A DNA stretch of 35,435 nucleotides from a virus: positions 1 through 35,435 of the IMG/VR virus record IMGVR_UViG_3300037285_000195, one strand, 5' to 3'. The notes under the pieces were generated by a model that searched no databases, was not told where the DNA came from, and saw only the letters and a list, made by a program, of their open reading frames with translations. Position 1 is the first letter of the stretch. Each line of letters begins with the position of its first letter. Below are positions 2,727-35,435 of the stretch, one piece after another. A program made the translations under genes and the position numbers.

Positions 2727-4241
2727 TTATGCGTTTACGCGGCTGGCGAAGTCCACCAGGTACCGGTCTGTGATGCGCTGGCGCAACAGCAGGTTTTCCA
2801 GCGGCGGCACTGGGGTGTAGTCGTAGTCGATGTACAGTTTGCCGGCCTTTAGCGTGTCTTTGGTGTTGGCTACGTCATCGAACCATGCGCTGGCATCGAT
2901 AATCAGGCCCAGGGCTTTCAGCTCGCGGAACTTGGCGTTGATGCCTTCGATGATGTCTTTCGCAAGCGACGGGTGCATGGGTTTGTCGACGGCCCACATG
3001 TGCGCCTCTGCAATCGTGTCTGCCAGTATTTGCGCTGTGCGGGTGTAGTTCTCGAACTGGAACAGCGGGTCGGAACTGCAGGTGCGTGAGCCCCAGAAGC
3101 GGAAGCCGTCGCGCTGCACCAGGGTGGTTACTTCGTTGGCGTTCAGCAGCCCTGCGTCGGTGTTGGGGTCTTGCAGATCCCAGTGCACATCTTTGTTGAT
3201 ACCGGTCACGCCGTTCACGGCCACGTTAGACAGGGTTTTATGCCAGCCTACCTGTTGATCGATCTTGGCGCGCAATCCCATAGCGCGCGCTACAGCGAAG
3301 GCGGTGGAGGTGGATTCGGTGTTTACGTCAAACGCCAAGAAATCTGGCCAGATCAGCATCAGCTCGCGGGCACCATAGCTATTGCGATACAAGATGGCGT
3401 CTTCGATGACTTCGCAGCCGTGGCAGCTGGCGTACACGAACGCGCGCAACTTCTGAGCCATTGCGACGGCTTCAGCGGTTACGGCTGGCGTGTCCAGGCC
3501 TGGTGCACCGATGATGCGGGGTTTTACGCCCAGGTTCTGTTCAGCAGCCAGCAGCGCTTTCAGGCCGGTCTTCTTGCCCTGGGCGGTGACGGTTCCGATG
3601 ACGTTGGCGGTGGTCTCGCTTTCGGTGGCTCCCTGCTCTACCCGAACTACCACAACGGGGGTGTTGGCCTGGTCTGCAATGGCATCCAGTGCAGCCGGCA
3701 ATGTGCCGGTGGTGCCAGCCTTGCCGATTGCGTCAAAGACGTTTGTTACCAGAACGGGGGTGTTCAGCGGGAAGGCTTCGTTCTTGCCGCCCGACAGCGC
3801 GGCATAGTCAGCCCCGCCAACTACGCCGTCACCGCTGGCGCCGCCTGCAAGTGATGCGGCAACCAGTGCAGAAGCGTCTGGGCTAACGTTTACGGCCGTT
3901 ACGACTTGGGATGCGGTGCTGGTAACAGCCGCTGATGCGCTGGTTGCCAGGCTTACAGTAATTTCATTTCCCAAAGCAGTAACTTTTAGTGTTGCAGAAG
4001 ACTTTGCAGGGTCGACAAAGCGCACGCGGCGGGTGTTGCCGATGGCCCCTGGGTTTGCGGCTGTGAATAAAATATCGGCATTGTCAGCGACAGCCCGAAT
4101 GGTGGCTGATGCCTTTAAGCCTGCTGACGCTTCGGGCGCGGTGGCCACAAGGCCGATAATGGCGGTTGCAACGGTACGAATGGTGCGAGTGCCTTCGTTG
4201 ATTTCGAGCACTCGAACACCGTGGTGGTATTGATCGGGCAT
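2727..4241 (-). CDS. FI: Contractile tail sheath gpFI with an inserted domain
   Basis: This is a 504-residue contractile tail sheath. Residues 1-40 ([17 protein letters not shown]) and about 156-504 ([51 protein letters not shown]) match P2 FI closely. P2 FI is about 396 residues. The extra length is one block at residues 41-155, rich in Ala, Thr, Ser and Val with a [10 protein letters not shown] motif, sitting exactly where P2 passes directly from residue ~38 into the PLN strand. The block resembles a beta-rich add-on domain on the outer sheath surface (inference). The first 127 bases overlap the 3' end of the DGR reverse transcriptase frame. GGAGG lies just before the ATG. Confidence 0.95.
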
Positions 4242-5368
4242 GACGCCTCCTGGTGTGGTTTTACCGGGTATATGGGTGTCATGATGAACTGTGAGAAGTC
4301 TGGCGCCAGTGGCGTTTTTTGTGGGGTGGTCACCTCACAATTTGCCGCCCTCTGAAAGCAAGCCGACCCTAAAAGCATTGACCTGATTCGGTAGGTGTCA
4401 GCAAACTTCGCATGGCCAATCCAGGAGCTGATTCGGTTGCGAATATGCTGGCCATCGATTTTCCCTGCAGCGTACTCTTTCTGCATAATCTTGAGCCTGG
4501 ACTTCATTCTGCGCACGCTTCCATTGCGCAAGCGGCGGTGGGTTGTCCACATGCGATACCCCAGGAAGTCCAGGGCCCGGCCGTTTTTGGCTCCCACAGG
4601 AAACACTTGAGTTTTCCCGTTAAGATCCAGCGCTAAATTCTCTTTCAGCCATTGCTCAAGGTGCTGCCACATTTGGTGGAGGTGCTTTTTGTCGTTATGG
4701 ACAATGAGCCAGTCATCCATATAACGCATGTAAAGCGGCTCCCTGAGGTCTTGCTTTACGTGCTGATCCAGCTCATGCAGGTAAACGTTGGCTGCAAGCT
4801 GGCTTGTCAGGTTTCCGATGGGCAGCCCTGGCCCCCACGATCGGATGATCTCTTCCAACAATTTCATGGTGCGCTTACACGCGATACGGCGTGCGAACAG
4901 CTTCAGTATGATGTCGTGGTTTATGGAGGGGAAATACTTCCTGATATCGGCTTTTAGAACGTATACGCGACCGTGATTTCTCTCCACCTTTCTCAGCCAC
5001 TTCTGGGCCTGCAGCGCTCCGGAGTGCATGCCCCGGCCTGGGCGGCAGGCGTAGCTGTGGTTGATGAATCTTTTTTCCCAGATGAACTCCACGGCGCCAA
5101 CTAAGCTGTGCTGAACTACGCGATCGCGGAATGGCAGCGCTGCCACAAGCCGGGTTTTTGGTTCGTATACATAGAATTCCCGGTAAACCCCGGTTTTGTA
5201 CTGGCCCCATATCAGTTCGTTCTGCAGGTGTATTAGTTCACTCTCCAGATTCCTTTCAAATTTCAGCACTTCGACGTGATGCCGCTTGCCCTTCCGGGCC
5301 CTAAGATAGCCGTTATAAAGGCTTTCGAAGTCGTAAACTTGCGGGTAGATATTGTCATAGGTTTTCAT
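4115..5368 (-). CDS. DGR reverse transcriptase
   Basis: This 417-residue reverse transcriptase makes mutagenised cDNA from the TR RNA. Visible motifs are the catalytic Asp in [11 protein letters not shown] (D141), the DGR-specific [10 protein letters not shown] motif (181-190, with IGxxxSQ instead of the QGxxxSP of other RTs), the active-site YMDD (216-219), and the thumb region FLGYRMW (268-274). The start ATG follows TAAGGATC. Family members are usually 330-400 residues; recognisable RT sequence ends near residue 340. The last ~77 residues are unlike the family, and the final 42 codons read through the 5' end of the sheath gene. The original stop may have been lost. The order target-avd-TR-RT matches Bordetella phage BPP-1. 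Confidence 0.96.
4319..4340. promoter_or_regulatory. Candidate Ogr-type activator dyad upstream of the sheath gene
   Basis: TTGTG-N12-CACAA is a perfect 5-bp dyad centred 88 bp upstream of the FI start. P2 Ogr and P4 Delta act at TGT/ACA dyads about 55 bp upstream of late transcription starts, which would leave a leader of about 34 nt here. A second dyad of the same spacing lies upstream of V, and this genome encodes an Ogr-like protein. The site lies inside the 3' part of the RT frame. Confidence 0.45.
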
Positions 5369-5484
5369 TTTGATCCTTAGAAAGGCGGCGCCGGAAGAGC
5401 CTTGCCTGAGCTACTACACTACCGACGCCTGTTCATGTTTCGGCGCTGGGCCGGGGATTAGCCACCCTTTTGAAGGTGCACTGT

Positions 5485-5506
5485 CTGCAAAGCCTTGGCC
5501 TTGCAG
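5485..5506 (-). other. Hairpin in the TR-RT spacer (likely part of the DGR RNA)
   Basis: The arms CTGCAA and TTGCAG enclose an inner GCC-TT-GGC stem. It lies in the 152-nt spacer between the 3' end of TR and the RT start. In BPP-1 a spacer of similar length (about 140 nt) downstream of TR is needed for Avd/RT binding and cDNA priming. A role as an RNA structural element is inferred from that position. Confidence 0.4.
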
Positions 5507-5520
5507 CTTCTGGCTTACCT

Positions 5521-5640
5521 CAAGAGCGGGCCGGAACCCGATGTTCGTGTTCGAGTTCGACCGCGGGTTGTTCAAGTTCAACGCGGCCAGGCCGGCATTG
5601 GAACCGTTGTTCCAGTTGCCGCCACGATACGGAAGGCGCT
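5521..5640 (-). repeat. DGR template repeat (TR)
   Basis: The region 5526-5640 aligns without gaps to 6057-6171 (VR) at a constant offset of 531 bp, with 102 of 115 positions identical. All 13 mismatches are A on the TR sense (minus) strand: plus-strand 5542, 5551, 5556, 5557, 5569, 5577, 5578, 5598, 5599, 5608, 5610, 5616 and 5628. In the VR frame the TR carries ten Asn codons (AAC/AAT) and single TAT and ATC codons, the codons favoured for adenine mutagenesis. The identity continues to 5521 with one further non-A mismatch at 5524, in the IMH* end. The TR is transcribed and used as the RT template. Confidence 0.97.
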
Positions 5641-5646
5641 TTGTGG

Positions 5647-5982
5647 CTAACCCTTAATGCTTTTGATCCAGCCGCCAACCATTCGCCCAACTTCATCCAA
5701 GTGCCGGCTCCACACTTCGTACTTTTTCATCGGTAAATGGCCTTCTTTCATGGCCACTCTGACCCGATGGCGCATAACATCCAGTTCGTCGGACAGTGCG
5801 CCAAGCACGGTTTTCTTGTGATGTTGCCGGGCTGCCTTGATGGTTAATCGCATGAGCTCCGTCATTGATTGCCGGATCTCTGCGCTGGATACATGTTTTT
5901 CAGCCTTCGGAAAGTGCCGCAAAGCAGTGCGGCCGTAGAGCTCCATGTCTTCCAGTTTTTGGGCAATTTTCAGGTTGTGCAT
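5647..5982 (-). CDS. avd: DGR accessory variability determinant (Avd-like four-helix protein)
   Basis: This is a 111-residue, basic, helical protein in the Avd position between the target gene and TR. The segments KLEDMELYGRTALRHFPKAE, IRQSMTELMRL and WSRHLDEVGRMVGGWIKS match the Avd/S23-like four-helix bundle family (from memory of the family). Avd binds the RT and the TR RNA and is required for cDNA synthesis in BPP-1. I chose the ATG at 5982. A TTG at 6033 would extend the frame by 17 codons but would place the DNA hairpin 6001-6020 inside the gene and has no ribosome binding site. The gene ends 7 bp before the TR. Confidence 0.88.
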   Translation of the reverse strand: MHNLKIAQKLEDMELYGRTALRHFPKAEKHVSSAEIRQSMTELMRLTIKAARQHHKKTVLGALSDELDVMRHRVRVAMKEGHLPMKKYEVWSRHLDEVGRMVGGWIKSIKG

Positions 5983-6000
5983 GACTGTCCAGATTAATAA

Positions 6001-6020
6001 GGGCGCACTGTCGTGCGCCC
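6001..6020 (-). other. DGR target-recognition hairpin/cruciform downstream of VR
   Basis: A perfect 8-bp inverted repeat, GGGCGCAC and GTGCGCCC, encloses four bases. On the target sense strand the loop reads GACA, which fits the GRNA tetraloop of the cruciform elements known downstream of VRs in BPP-1-type DGRs. It lies 24 bp after the target stop codon and 37 bp beyond the end of the VR core. It has no U-tract, so it is not a typical terminator. Confidence 0.8.
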
Positions 6021-6043
6021 TGTCAGATTGCAAGGCTCAGAGA

Positions 6044-7024
6044 TCAGCCGGCAAAAGCGGGCCGGAACCCGAAGTTCGTGTCCGAGCCCGACCGCGGGTC
6101 GTTCAAGAGCAACGCGGCCAGGCCGGCACGGGAACCGTAGCTCCAGCTGCCGCCACGAAACGGAAGGCGCTCACCGGACGTGTTTGCATAGATTCGGCCC
6201 TGCGCTTCCGTTTCCGTTTGCGGGCTGATCATCAGGCGCTTCATGAGATCGCCTTCCGAGTACGCGCCCCCCTTAGCGAGCGCATTCCACTCGCTGTTAA
6301 TGCTAGCGTCTTCGGGGGTGCCCTTTGAGTTGGCCAGCGTTAATGTGCCGGAGTCATTGTTGAGGAAGTGACCGGCTGACAACCAGGCCGACTCTTCCGC
6401 GGTGTAATCATTGTCGGTGGTGCAGAATATTTCCCCATCAACCAGTTTGAACTGATCCTGCCACTCCCAGACGTTACCCACCAAGTCGGAAATGCCTGCG
6501 GCGGTGCCGTCGTGGCGCCAGCTTGCCGGGCCGCCGCCGGTTGCAGATCGACCGCCAGAGCCAGTCACAACCGCCGTTTCATGCTTTGCATCGTGTGCAC
6601 GGCCGTAGTCGGTGTTGCCGCGCGGGGTGAAGCCGTTGGCTTTGCACCACAGCGCAATTGCCGCCCATTCGTGCATGCTCATCAGGTGCCAGCCTGGGCC
6701 TTTGCCTTCGCATGCCGCCTTTGCCGTGTCGTAGTTGATGCTTGTTCTGGGATCTTTACCGGGCAAGCCAACCGCGCGGCCATCGTAAACTGACGCCTGG
6801 TACTGGCTGACGAAGATTTCCGATTTCTCCTGGCCATCGACTAGGAAGGCGGTGGCAACTCCAGTGCCCAGAATGGATTCCATGCCCAGGTCTTCATAGC
6901 GGAACTTGGGGATTACGCGCATGTACGACGGAAAGCCTTTATCGTCATACAGTACGGTGATGTATCCGCCGGTGGCGGCCTCAACCTGCTGGCGCAGGCT
7001 ATCAGGGCTAAAAATGATAGACAT
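6044..7024 (-). CDS. DGR target: C-type-lectin/FGE-fold tail tip (receptor-binding) protein
   Basis: This 326-residue protein is diversified by the DGR. Residues ~90-326 carry formylglycine-generating-enzyme/C-type-lectin fold motifs: GWHLMSMHEWAAIALWC, GNVWEWQDQF, FRGGSW and GFRPAF. The variable region is residues 285-323, with the stop codon 11 bp past the core VR. Residues differing from TR are 289 F(Y), 293 S(N), 295 S(N), 296 Y(N), 299 R(N), 306 L(N), 309 D(N), 313 G(N), 315 D(N) and 318 F(I), with the TR residue in brackets. N308 and N317 remain as in TR. The location at the end of the fibre genes suggests a receptor-binding tip like Mtd of BPP-1 (inference). AAGGAG lies 8 bp before the ATG. 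Confidence 0.95.
   Translation of the reverse strand: MSIIFSPDSLRQQVEAATGGYITVLYDDKGFPSYMRVIPKFRYEDLGMESILGTGVATAFLVDGQEKSEIFVSQYQASVYDGRAVGLPGKDPRTSINYDTAKAACEGKGPGWHLMSMHEWAAIALWCKANGFTPRGNTDYGRAHDAKHETAVVTGSGGRSATGGGPASWRHDGTAAGISDLVGNVWEWQDQFKLVDGEIFCTTDNDYTAEESAWLSAGHFLNNDSGTLTLANSKGTPEDASINSEWNALAKGGAYSEGDLMKRLMISPQTETEAQGRIYANTSGERLPFRGGSWSYGSRAGLAALLLNDPRSGSDTNFGFRPAFAG
6052..6171 (-). repeat. DGR variable repeat (VR) with IMH
   Basis: This is the C-terminal coding repeat paired with TR 5521-5640. All core differences correspond to A in the TR sense strand, with outcomes including G, C and T, so the repeat has been through mutagenic homing. The 3' end in the sense direction is GC-rich and invariant (GGGTTCCGGCCCGC), which fits the initiation-of-mutagenic-homing site. 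It is followed by the hairpin at 6001-6020. Confidence 0.97.
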
Positions 7025-7036
7025 CGTGCCTACTCC

Positions 7037-7360
7037 TTATCGTTGGGTGGTCCAGAGGGTGATCACCACCTGGTCTGGGTTTAGCGGTACACGCTGAGGT
7101 TCGATAACTGGGCTGCCTTCATCATCCACTTCACCGGTGTCCACTTCCTGGGTGATGTATGGCGGAATTCGTATGGATGCCACTTGAAAGCCGGTGGCAG
7201 CCTCGACGATGCCGCCGTTGGCTTCCTGGCGCAGGTCAATCAGCAGTTCAGATTCTTTCTGCCGGTGTTCAGCGTTGTAACTGTCGCCACCGATGGTGAC
7301 CAGCACTCCGGCTACCGATACATCTGGATGCGGCCCTGGGCCGCGCGTGATAATTCTCAT
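7037..7360 (-). CDS. Small fibre-region protein of unknown function
   Basis: This 107-residue protein has no family I can name. It begins MRIITRGPGPHPDVSVAGVL and is rich in Val, Ile, Pro and Gly with no membrane segment. It is encoded 10 bp after the fibre protein gene and 12 bp before the DGR target, in the same operon. In P2 the slot after the fibre gene H is taken by the fibre assembly chaperone G, but no similarity to gpG is visible. It could be a fibre subunit, an adaptor linking the lectin-fold tip to the fibre, or a chaperone. AAGGAG precedes the start. Confidence 0.75.
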   Translation of the reverse strand: MRIITRGPGPHPDVSVAGVLVTIGGDSYNAEHRQKESELLIDLRQEANGGIVEAATGFQVASIRIPPYITQEVDTGEVDDEGSPVIEPQRVPLNPDQVVITLWTTQR

Positions 7361-7370
7361 GATTTTCTCC

Positions 7371-8249
7371 TTACTGTTGCATCAGGTGCGCAACAAAGCG
7401 CACGCGAACGGAATCGGCCGAACCGCCCAGGTAAACCCGGAAAGTGTTGCTTGCGCGGTCTCCGGCTTCGTGCTTCAGGGTTGGCTTTTCGCCACCCAAA
7501 TAGTCAACAACGTCCAGTGCCAGGTGGTAATGGCTGCCGCCCATAACTTTTTTGAAGTCCTTTTGCTCAAACGCCGGCGATGTGTGGACAGATGGCCACT
7601 CCGGCTCGGTGCGCGCCACGCTAGTAATCGTTACGTCTTCTAACTCTGGGGAAGTGGTGCCGGTACTTCCGGCTGGAATCGAAAGCTTCGCCAGTACCAG
7701 GGCGTTATCTGGCGCACCTTCGTCCAAGTTCGTGACACCCAGCTGGACTTTGCCACTGACGATGGTTAAATAGGCTTCTGCGGTTGCAGACTCGGCACTG
7801 GAGTTGCTGGGCACGCTGGCCGCGTTATCTTGTGCGCTCACCGGCATTTCCCGGCCGCCCATAAAACACACGCCAGAGGCAATATTCAGGTTGCGGTTTG
7901 CGGTTGCTGACGCTGCAATGCCGCAGCCTTTTTTTACGCCTCGGTTTGTCAGCAAAAACTCGCCTTCTTGGTGGCGAACCGTCTGCTGGCGATCCATTTC
8001 CTTGTTCAGTAATCCTACTTCGGACGCTGCGCGCTCTACCGCTGACCAGAGCGCGTTTTGCCCGTCTGTGCCTACGGCTTCCAGGTCTTTTTGCGCCGCA
8101 GCAAGCTGCTGCTTGAGCCATTCGGTGCGGTTGCCAAGCTGTTTTGCCTGGATGTTACTGATACCGTCCGGGCCGCCTACAACGGGATCTTCCGGTTCGA
8201 TTTGATAAACGCCGGCCACCCACGCTGGGGTGATGTTCAGGTTTGCCAT
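7371..8249 (-). CDS. Tail fibre protein (gpH-like)
   Basis: This 292-residue protein has an N-terminal segment (PVVGGPDGISNIQAKQLGNR, about residues 22-41) seen in many P2-type and other tail-fibre proteins, where the start of the fibre attaches to the baseplate. A short helical region follows (EWLKQQLAAAQKDLEAVG) and then a Ser/Thr/Gly/Ala-rich beta region. It is much shorter than P2 gpH (about 669) and lacks an obvious receptor-binding tip, consistent with the separate DGR target supplying it (inference). It lies between the 147-residue tail protein and the 107-residue gene. Confidence 0.8.
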   Translation of the reverse strand: MANLNITPAWVAGVYQIEPEDPVVGGPDGISNIQAKQLGNRTEWLKQQLAAAQKDLEAVGTDGQNALWSAVERAASEVGLLNKEMDRQQTVRHQEGEFLLTNRGVKKGCGIAASATANRNLNIASGVCFMGGREMPVSAQDNAASVPSNSSAESATAEAYLTIVSGKVQLGVTNLDEGAPDNALVLAKLSIPAGSTGTTSPELEDVTITSVARTEPEWPSVHTSPAFEQKDFKKVMGGSHYHLALDVVDYLGGEKPTLKHEAGDRASNTFRVYLGGSADSVRVRFVAHLMQQ

Positions 8250-8264: not shown

Positions 8265-8708
8265 TTAAAACGTGATGGTCCAAGTGCCCTCAAGGCTGAT
8301 ATCGCTATTTTTTTCAATACCACCCCTCACTTTCCGGCTAAATAGCTCGCCGGACGATGTTCTGAGACCGAATTCCCGGATAGTGAGCCCGTTGGCCTCG
8401 GTAGTGCCCAGATTAAAGCTGAACATTACTTGCCCTGGGGCCGGGTATGAGTGCCCAGACAACGGCCGCCAGTGCGTCGCTGTTAGTTCGGTGTCGTTTG
8501 GTGACGCCGGAGAAGATCCGGTTCCGAAACCGATGTGCGTTACGGAATCGCCAGAGCCAGCGCCTGAAATCAAGCGGGCCAGCATTTCCCGGGCACCGCT
8601 CACAATCAGGTTTTCATCTTTCCACCAATCGATCAGCATTCCGTCCGATCGGCGGACCACTGCAACTTCCAGTGTCCCGCTGAGCTTTATTGAGTCTTTG
8701 ATGTCCAT
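8265..8708 (-). CDS. Tail-associated protein, probably baseplate or fibre component
   Basis: This 147-residue protein is predicted to be beta-rich. It includes the segments DSVTHIGFGTGSSPASPNDT and ANGLTIREFGLRTSSGELFS, a pattern seen in small tail proteins encoded near fibre genes in other temperate phages. I cannot assign a specific P2 counterpart. It lies 12 bp downstream of I and 15 bp upstream of the fibre gene, so it probably joins or decorates the fibre base. The ATG follows CCGGAGACAAG, a good ribosome binding site. Confidence 0.75.
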   Translation of the reverse strand: MDIKDSIKLSGTLEVAVVRRSDGMLIDWWKDENLIVSGAREMLARLISGAGSGDSVTHIGFGTGSSPASPNDTELTATHWRPLSGHSYPAPGQVMFSFNLGTTEANGLTIREFGLRTSSGELFSRKVRGGIEKNSDISLEGTWTITF

Positions 8709-8720
8709 CTTGTCTCCGGA

Positions 8721-9707
8721 TTAGATGTTGGTGACGGTGCGGGTGGTGCCCGCGTAATGGCTGGCCCCGGCGTATGTCAGGCGGCGGTTGTGCTTTCTTC
8801 GCTCAGTCACTGTGATCAGCCCGGCATCTATTGCGCAGGGCTGTTGTGCGCCGTGGCTCATGGCGCCGTCGTGACTGGCAGCCCCTGAGTAATGCGGCTG
8901 TACTTGCTGGCTATCCGATGCCTGGTAACGTATGTCCAGGCTGGAGTGTTCCCACTGGTTATCGTGTCGAACGCCCGTCACCTGCCATTCGTAATGTGGC
9001 ATCAGTCCGTCGTGGGCCGCGTATCCGCTGTGCGCTAGCTGGGCGTTGTAATACGTTGGCCCTCGCGGCTGCTGCTGGGCCTGGCTGTGATTGATGCTGC
9101 CGTCGTATCGGATGCCGGCCGGGCGCACTTCGGCCAGGCTCTGTATCGCGGTTATTGAATATTCGTCGGCCATTTCCAGGGAATCGTTTACCGATGCCTG
9201 GTAGGCGATTTCGCGGAGCACAGATCGCACCGGTTTGGCCCTGCTGATAAGTCTTACCAACCTTTCGCGCTCGATGGCGCCAACGCCCCGGTCTTCGCCT
9301 ATGTCCGCGATTACACGGAACTGAGCCCACCGGGTGCCGCCCGAATAGTCGTCTTCGCCGTTATGAGACTCTGCCCCGTCGTGCCTTAAATGCGGCAAGC
9401 CCTCTTCTATGTGGGCGTCTGCGTACCCAGCGGAGCGCAAAGCTTCGCGCACCGCCCATACCGTGCCTCTGTGGCGGCGTATGTCTGGGGTGGCGGCAAT
9501 AACATCGCGCTTTATCTGCTCTGGCCACGCGGAATCCCACTCTTCAACGCCTACGGCGTAGGCCAGCCAGGGTAAGAAGTTGACCGGGCAGCGCTGCGGG
9601 TGCCACAGATCGCCCACGGGAACATCAACCAGAAGTGCGCCGCGGAATGTGGCTTCAAGGTCGCGCTCCAGCTCGGTGCTGCTCGGTGGCAGCAAGTGGT
9701 TATTCAC
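8721..9707 (-). CDS. I: Baseplate protein gpI with His-rich C-terminal extension
   Basis: The first ~180 residues match P2 gpI (about 176 residues in total): LLPPSSTELERDLEATFRGA, NFLPWLAYAVGVEEWDSAW and DIRRHRGTVWAVREALRSAG. The protein is 328 residues because of a C-terminal extension. This begins near residue 190 and is built of loosely repeated His/Gly/Asp/Tyr motifs (RYDGSINHS, HSGYAAHDG, PHYSGAASHDGAMSHG, YAGASHYAG). A further HDGAESHNG lies inside the gpI domain. The extension may be a fibre-binding or metal-binding region (inference). The GTG start lies within the last codons of J. Confidence 0.9.
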   Translation of the reverse strand: MNNHLLPPSSTELERDLEATFRGALLVDVPVGDLWHPQRCPVNFLPWLAYAVGVEEWDSAWPEQIKRDVIAATPDIRRHRGTVWAVREALRSAGYADAHIEEGLPHLRHDGAESHNGEDDYSGGTRWAQFRVIADIGEDRGVGAIERERLVRLISRAKPVRSVLREIAYQASVNDSLEMADEYSITAIQSLAEVRPAGIRYDGSINHSQAQQQPRGPTYYNAQLAHSGYAAHDGLMPHYEWQVTGVRHDNQWEHSSLDIRYQASDSQQVQPHYSGAASHDGAMSHGAQQPCAIDAGLITVTERRKHNRRLTYAGASHYAGTTRTVTNI

Positions 9708-10593
9708 TGATGGCCACCTTTATGCTTTCGCACCAGGGCGCCTCTACTGCTGAGCAGCTGATATCGTGTTCAGGGCTGGCAAGCCTTACTCGCTCAACTC
9801 CTGGCACGTACATGGCTGCGGCCAGGGCGTCTTTTACGATGTCTTCACCCAGGGCGTGACGGGCCTGCGTGTATTCTCGGGCAGCCCTCATAGCTTCGGC
9901 GCGAACAACATCAGGATCAGGGCCGCTGCGCAGTTCAAGCGAGGCGATTACCGCATAGGCTTTGATCTGGGCTGACTGCACTTGCACCTGGTCGTTCAAT
10001 GGGCGTGCGCGCTCGGCGCCGACACCGGCCTGTACCGCACTCAATAGCTCGACTGATGCCAGGCCAGAGCCTGCGCGGGACAACACAGTCACCTGGACGA
10101 TGCCGGCATACCTGTTGATGGCGGTTACGTCTTTCACGTCTTCGTGGGCGCTCAGGGCGTGGTACCGGTAGCCATTTTCGGAGCCAGCCGTAGACGGCGA
10201 ATCCATCGCCAGCATGATGCGGCGCTTGTAGTCGGGATCAGACTCCATGACAACGGGGACCGGGAGCTGGGCCAAAGGATCGGCGGGCCGCAGCGTTAGG
10301 CGCTCTGTGGCGTAATATGTAACGCCAATATGGTCAAGGGTGGTTCCGGTTGCGTAAGCCAGCAACAACGATCGCGAGTCCTCCTGGAACTGTTGGCGCT
10401 TGACCAGAGCAAAATAAGCGGCGGTTTCCAACAGCTTGGTGATGGGTTCGCTTTCCAGTTGTATCGTTTCGGCGGCCGCGGGGTAGCGGGCGACAAAGTC
10501 ACGCCGGACTTCGTTAAGCAACTGCTCGAAACTCAGTGATTCAATGATCTGGGGCGCGGGAAGCCGAGAAAGATCGATTTGGTTTGGCATCAT
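9700..10593 (-). CDS. J: Baseplate wedge protein gpJ
   Basis: This 297-residue protein (P2 gpJ is about 302) begins MMPNQIDLSRLPAPQIIESL. It contains the conserved GTTLDHIGVTYYATERL, DPDYKRRIMLAMDSPSTAGS and NGYRYHALSAH segments of P2-like gpJ, a relative of T4 gp6. It forms the baseplate wedge with gpW and gpI. Its start overlaps the W stop as GCATGATG, and its stop overlaps the I start, indicating translational coupling. Confidence 0.95.
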   Translation of the reverse strand: MMPNQIDLSRLPAPQIIESLSFEQLLNEVRRDFVARYPAAAETIQLESEPITKLLETAAYFALVKRQQFQEDSRSLLLAYATGTTLDHIGVTYYATERLTLRPADPLAQLPVPVVMESDPDYKRRIMLAMDSPSTAGSENGYRYHALSAHEDVKDVTAINRYAGIVQVTVLSRAGSGLASVELLSAVQAGVGAERARPLNDQVQVQSAQIKAYAVIASLELRSGPDPDVVRAEAMRAAREYTQARHALGEDIVKDALAAAMYVPGVERVRLASPEHDISCSAVEAPWCESIKVAISE

Positions 10594-34632: not shown

Positions 34633-35435
34633 TTAATCCCTGTCGTACAGTGCGCTGCGGGCGCGGGTGGCTTTGGCTCTGTCACGCACGGCCAGTATGC
34701 GCTGCACTTCGCCGGCGATTTCCTGGGCGCTTTGCCCGGGTGCTGCGTTGACGTGGATGGTGATGGTGTCGCCACCGGCTTGCTGTGTGGTTGGCGCGCC
34801 ACGGGAAATGGGCGGCCGGCTGTCGAATTCAACGTTACCGGCGGCGGCTGGCAGCGCTGCAGCGCCAATGGCAATGCCGGCACCGGCCTGGCGTACACGC
34901 TTACCAAAGCCGGTGACTTGCTTGAGCGTGTCGGGCTCTTTCTGTTCCAGGCCTTGGCGGTAGCCTTCCAGGGTGTCGTGGCCTGCGCTCATGAATACCC
35001 GGGACGGGGATTTGATGCCCAGGGTTTCCTTGAACCAGCCGATCGCTTTGGCGCCGGCGCCGGTGATGGTTTCCTTCACTTTGTTTAGGCCGCCAAGTAT
35101 GCCGCCCACCAGGCCGTCTAGGATCTGTTTGCCGAAGCCGGTGAAAGACTCGGGCAGGTCGACTCCGAACCAGCTCATGACGCCACTGAACGCTTTGTAG
35201 AACAAGGCCAATGGTGACCAGCTCAGAATTAGCTTGCTTACGCCTGCAATGCCGCCACTGAAGGCATCGCGCACGCCAGACCAGACCCCGGACAGCATGC
35301 TGCCCAGGCCACCAATGGCGCTACCGATACCGGACACTAGGCCGCTGATCATCTTGCCGCCGGCGGCGGTCAGGTTGGATGGCATTTCGACACCCAGCCA
35401 GCCCATGACACCGCTGAAGGCTTTGTAGAACAGGC
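34633..35435 (-). CDS. T: Tail tape measure protein (gpT-like), C-terminal part
   Basis: This is the end of the tape measure gene that begins at 1768 and crosses the contig join. This part begins inside the glycine-rich module (VMGWLGVEMPSNLTAAGG, SGIGSAIGGLGSMLSGVWSG) and contains a second, diverged copy of it (LILSWSPLALFYKAFSGVMS). A conserved TMP C-terminus follows (LGIKSPSRVFMSAGHDTLEG, RQGLEQKEPDTLKQVTGFGK). The stop at 34633 is 5 bp before U. Bases 35334-35435 repeat 1-102. Confidence 0.93.
   Translation of the reverse strand, partial: LFYKAFSGVMGWLGVEMPSNLTAAGGKMISGLVSGIGSAIGGLGSMLSGVWSGVRDAFSGGIAGVSKLILSWSPLALFYKAFSGVMSWFGVDLPESFTGFGKQILDGLVGGILGGLNKVKETITGAGAKAIGWFKETLGIKSPSRVFMSAGHDTLEGYRQGLEQKEPDTLKQVTGFGKRVRQAGAGIAIGAAALPAAAGNVEFDSRPPISRGAPTTQQAGGDTITIHVNAAPGQSAQEIAGEVQRILAVRDRAKATRARSALYDRD
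35334..35435. repeat. Contig-end direct repeat, right copy
   Basis: This is identical to 1-102; see the left copy. It marks the circular join inside the tape measure gene. Confidence 0.9.

Follow-up and report, generated by a model that had tools for sequence, protein, structure and literature searches.

A diversity-generating retroelement beside the tail-fibre genes of a P2-type phage, predicted to diversify a C-type-lectin tail tip

The closest described relatives of the locus analysed here are diversity-generating retroelements (DGRs) of phages. The Pseudoalteromonas phages ACA1 and ACA2 (Peduoviridae), described in 2023, are temperate and P2-like and have an antireceptor that is modulated by a DGR; their isolates differ mainly in VR, and the authors wrote that they were aware of no DGR in any other characterised P2-like phage (PMC10612066). 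The Vibrio phage VHML is among the phage DGRs in Figure 5 of a study reporting that phage DGR hairpins have GC-rich stems of 7-10 bp, GRNA loops and a spacing of 4-34 bp, and that the hairpin of Bordetella phage BPP-1 is required for efficient retrohoming (PMC3240598). KS5, a P2-like phage with a reverse transcriptase (RT), was weighed as a possible precedent and set aside, since those who described it saw no long repeats and classed the RT as retron-type.

The window, i.e. the whole stretch of DNA that was analysed, is the virus record IMGVR_UViG_3300037285_000195 of 35,435 bases. Its first 100 bases or so (1-100) are directly repeated at its end (35334-35435) and the tape-measure frame is continuous across the joined ends, so that the record looks like a complete circular genome, permuted and broken inside the tape-measure gene. 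The P2-type head genes are located on the minus strand (Phage_cap_P2 capsid N, Phage_GPO scaffold O, Phage_term_smal small terminase M and Phage_GPL completion L), the gpP-like terminase and the portal on the plus strand, opposite to the other head genes of the P2 family. The P2-type contractile tail is represented by Tail_P2_I, Baseplate_J, the sheath, Phage_GPD (D) and Phage_base_V (V). Over residues 157-504 the sheath shares 67-71% identity with those of Pseudomonas, Shewanella and Klebsiella P2-like phages; residues about 40-156 (some 115 residues) are unmatched in most P2-like sheaths and common to the close relatives. An integrase-like protein (phrog_1, 2.1e-13), a CI-like repressor and an antirepressor suggest a temperate phage; no integration site was seen in the genome. 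The phage resembles the P2 subgroup rather than the HP1 subgroup and carries a DGR. The cassette and its neighbours are as follows.

2727..4241, minus strand: tail sheath FI, immediately following the DGR (Pfam Phage_sheath_1 and 1C)
4340..5368, minus strand: DGR reverse transcriptase core, with the open frame running on to 4115 (Pfam, PHROG, motifs, tree)
5521..5640, minus strand: TR (template repeat) with 24 adenines, directly downstream of Avd (repeat alignment with VR)
5647..5982, minus strand: Avd (accessory variability determinant), 111 aa (NCBIfam, Pfam, PHROG)
6000..6021, minus strand: hairpin/cruciform downstream of VR, with a 9-bp GC-rich stem and a GACA (GRNA) loop
6052..6171, minus strand: VR, target codons 286-324 (repeat alignment with TR)
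6044..7024, minus strand: DGR target, predicted receptor-binding tail-tip protein, FGE-type C-type lectin, 326 aa (phrog_2889, 1.8e-119; FGE-sulfatase; TaqVP match)
7037..7360, minus strand: small protein upstream of the target (phrog_8734; order kept in close relatives)
7371..8249, minus strand: tail fibre-like protein, whose N-terminus matches tail fibre families (phrog_3100; conserved order)
8265..8708, minus strand: conserved protein, flanked by gpI and the fibre-like gene (phrog_5417; conserved order)
8721..9707, minus strand: baseplate/tail protein gpI (Tail_P2_I, 2.1e-34)
9700..10593, minus strand: baseplate gpJ (Baseplate_J, 8.4e-24)

An earlier note on this DNA had proposed that a P2-like phage carries a complete DGR in its tail-fibre region, and every part that it named is present at its place on the minus strand. 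These parts are a target gene with a C-terminal VR, a hairpin, Avd, TR and a DGR reverse transcriptase, lying between the fibre genes and the sheath gene FI. The P2-type myovirus setting proposed there is confirmed by the head and contractile tail genes described above. The part order of BPP-1 (mtd/avd/TR/brt), also claimed, was recovered: both loci run target-VR, avd, TR, RT and have a hairpin with a GRNA loop, and their RTs are 37% identical. BPP-1 differs in being another type of phage, and its Mtd has extra domains making a trimer.

TR and VR form a 120-nt repeat of 88% identity. Thirteen of their 14 differences fall on the 24 adenines of TR (A>G at seven, A>T at four, A>C at two), an adenine bias with a hypergeometric P of 3.6e-10. 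The remaining difference, one C>T, is located four bases before the 3' end and is common to the window and 12 of 12 IMG/VR relatives. By analogy with BPP-1 we read it as an IMH mark lying outside the copied stretch; it would be expected to be shared, because homing does not overwrite this mark. VR reads in frame. TR adenines are held by 13 VR codons, ten of them AAC or AAT, and eight of these ten differ from TR; none of the 13 is able to mutate to a stop at its adenines, which leaves about 4e13 possible proteins. When the genome was searched with the target for a second VR, the matches were VR and TR only. The hairpin, AGGGCGCAC-GACA-GTGCGCCCT, follows about 30 bp after the end of VR. An inverted repeat is found at the same place in 14 related loci including VHML, with a GRNA loop in all and one imperfect pair in a few.

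The most likely start of Avd is the ATG at 5982 and not the TTG at 6033. It scores 100.4 bits against the NCBIfam model DivGenRetAVD (NF033474; cut-off 80) and also matches Pfam bAvd and the PHROG 'Avd protein of DGR'; the RT matches Pfam RVT_1 and PHROG reverse transcriptase. The predicted DGR-type RT with IGxxxSQ and YMDD was also found, as IGNLTSQ and YMDD. A grouping with retrons or group II introns had been named as the outcome that would speak against a DGR. Our tree is used for its local placement only, since its deeper branching is poorly supported, with 12 of 35 inner branches left open and an outgroup on long branches. In it, the RT is located inside starred clades made only of DGR RTs, with those of tailed phages. 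The group II intron RTs make up a separate clade with a long branch and have the motif GGxISP instead of the SQ motif of DGRs. The nearest RT in the PDB by phmmer is 8ub7, 'Reverse transcriptase' (E 6.7e-65), from what we take to be the Bordetella series of DGR RTs; group II RTs reach E 2.4e-21 at best. The RT open frame had been given as starting at 4115. The intact core at 4340-5368 stands, but the extra tail at the RT 3' end (4115-4345) does not: set against four close relatives, the window is shifted by 1 nt after about codon 345, which removes the usual stop and lets the frame run over the opening 127 nt of the sheath gene. A genuine C-terminal extension was considered and rejected, as the tail is a shift into sequence conserved for the sheath and the RTs of close relatives end at 341-358 aa. 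The shift may possibly be a sequencing error.

The target was modelled with a mean pLDDT of 82, the low-confidence segment 136-166 being left uninterpreted. The model is a C-type lectin that very closely resembles TaqVP, the variable protein of a Thermus aquaticus DGR (5VF4). The phmmer match to 5vf4 has an E-value of 1.2e-70, and the model superposes on TaqVP with Z 36.6 over 307 residues (rmsd 2.5, 44% identity). TvpA follows at Z 9.6 and the Mtd variants at Z 8.3-8.6. The comparison with Mtd had been proposed in the earlier note; TaqVP is the far closer match. TaqVP shares the fold and the C-terminal position of VR with our target; the paper on TaqVP does not discuss a phage tail. In the window, as in many relatives, the target gene occupies the fibre slot, with gpI on one side and FI on the other, and its homologue in ACA1 is annotated as antireceptor. 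We infer that the target is the receptor-binding tip; VR variation would then probably change the host range or the host surfaces bound.

Direct evidence of recent mutagenic retrohoming in this lineage comes from VR-only variation in relatives of the window phage. IMG/VR contigs with an RT 59-84% identical to that of the window carry the same cassette, and some of them form near-identical pairs. L009 and L010 differ at 13 of 119 VR bases, each of the 13 at a position where TR has adenine, and agree at all of 4391 other bases. L012 and L013 have 20 VR differences, 18 of them at adenines, and none in 2600 other bases; for L007 and L008 the numbers are 13 VR differences (12 at adenines) and one in 3582 other bases. 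TR is identical in every near-identical pair compared. The pattern of a varying VR and a constant TR, suggested earlier as a population check, is seen in these related contigs, whose RTs are 59-83% identical to that of the window; no second sequence of the window phage itself was found. Two irregular loci were met among the relatives. At L005:2302-2419, VR is one base short at a TR-adenine position and the target is out of frame there, which could be a deletion borne by homing or an assembly error. At L106:4459-5300, the RT homologue is in two pieces and possibly interrupted; TR and VR are intact.

We consider it very probable that this DGR diversifies the C-type-lectin tail-fibre tip of a probably temperate, contractile-tailed phage of P2 type. 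The RT together with Avd would copy the TR-containing RNA, adenines would be misread during copying, and the mutated cDNA would replace VR of the target gene; the start of copying would be set by the IMH-like 3' end of VR, aided by the downstream hairpin. That the RT could instead come from a group II intron or a retron, with the repeat being a chance duplication, has a negligible probability in our eyes. The RT does match the group II model TIGR04416, at 137.8 bits and far under its cut-off of 300, but the SQ motif, Avd, the adenine-specific TR/VR differences and the placement among DGR RTs all argue against such an origin, and the adenine bias with the VR-only variation in relatives refutes it. 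In another reading the DGR works, but its target is some other diversified virion or secreted protein, e.g. an FGE-like enzyme. The FGE-type fold would suit an enzyme, and the virion location is deduced from gene position. However, the fibre slot of the gene, here and in many relatives, the antireceptor annotation in ACA1 and the opinion of the TaqVP authors that FGE activity is unlikely in DGR variable proteins make this reading improbable.

A further reading is a decayed element: VR would have mutated in the past, the shift would have silenced this copy, and the tip would now be fixed. Such decay is consistent with the lost stop and the overlap with the sheath gene, with the existence of DGR-less sister phages that have the same target (L108, L140 and L142, with no TR/VR pair), and with a prophage with a frameshifted RT reported in the ACA study (PMC10612066). 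The shift, however, leaves the conserved RT core untouched. In the relatives L009, L010 and L012-L014, which show VR-only variation, the RT ends at 341-346 aa, before or near the shift point. We expect the shift to have little effect on function, because the catalytic core is intact and these relatives end where they do. TR, VR, the hairpin, Avd and the catalytic motifs are also intact, and VR keeps the reading frame, with nearly all of its differences from TR at adenines. We therefore find decay unlikely. The retroelement is real and probably functional, and we infer that this very copy would be active in diversifying the predicted tip.

Related loci were searched for with an alignment-based RT scan of genome contigs; a scan with the single RT protein gave nothing. 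A P2-type capsid and a TR/VR pair with adenine-specific differences are present in the same record in L107, L109 and L130 (capsids 61%, 62% and 55% identical to that of the window), and a Craterilacuibacter genome (L021, 58%) has a P2-type capsid beside a DGR cassette. Related prophages are present in Craterilacuibacter sp. RT1T and in Vibrio injensis M12-1144. More distant loci with a P2-type tail and a DGR occur in many Proteobacteria. With VHML, ACA1/ACA2, these four further records combining P2 capsid, P2 tail and DGR, and the distant loci, the arrangement is not new but recurrent; the earlier note had overlooked VHML, VP58.5 and ACA1/ACA2. P2-type phages with a target homologue in the same slot before FI were also observed: L105, L108, L140, L142 and a Klebsiella Dagavirus (L178:6654-7736). 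No Avd, RT or good TR/VR pair was found in these loci, as if the tip were frozen. The chances are evenly balanced that, in the P2-subgroup lineage, the DGR and its own fibre adaptor genes have been repeatedly gained and lost in the fixed gpI-FI slot. If this is true, phages that are otherwise alike would allow a natural comparison between tail tips that are diversified and tail tips that are frozen. Sister phages that have or lack the cassette in this slot would be a way to test when tip diversification pays.

Among the known systems, the Vibrio phages VHML and VP58.5 (Vhmlvirus) resemble the window in having a P2-like tail operon with the same order of J, I, fibre, FGE-type target, Avd, TR, RT, FI and tube FII, and in TR/VR differences located at adenines only; their hairpin is GGCGCAC-GGTA-GTGCGCC. 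Identity to the window is 45% for the target, 39-47% for the RT and 38-39% for the sheath. They have an extra small gene between RT and FI that the window lacks and, unlike in the window, the remaining genome of VHML is not P2-like (PMC10612066). ACA1 and ACA2 share with the window an antireceptor diversified by a DGR, with Avd, TR and RT (target 41% and RT 44% identical). In contrast to the window, they have a tail module of the HP1 subgroup and a TR translated within the RT reading frame (PMC10612066). Their DGR does not adjoin the sheath gene, whereas that of the window adjoins a sheath resembling those of the P2 subgroup (about 70% identical to its counterparts in P2-like phages of Pseudomonas). 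The modest addition of this locus is thus a DGR in a phage resembling the P2 subgroup and not the HP1 subgroup, which extends tail-tip hypermutation to a subgroup whose biology is well known and which is genetically tractable.
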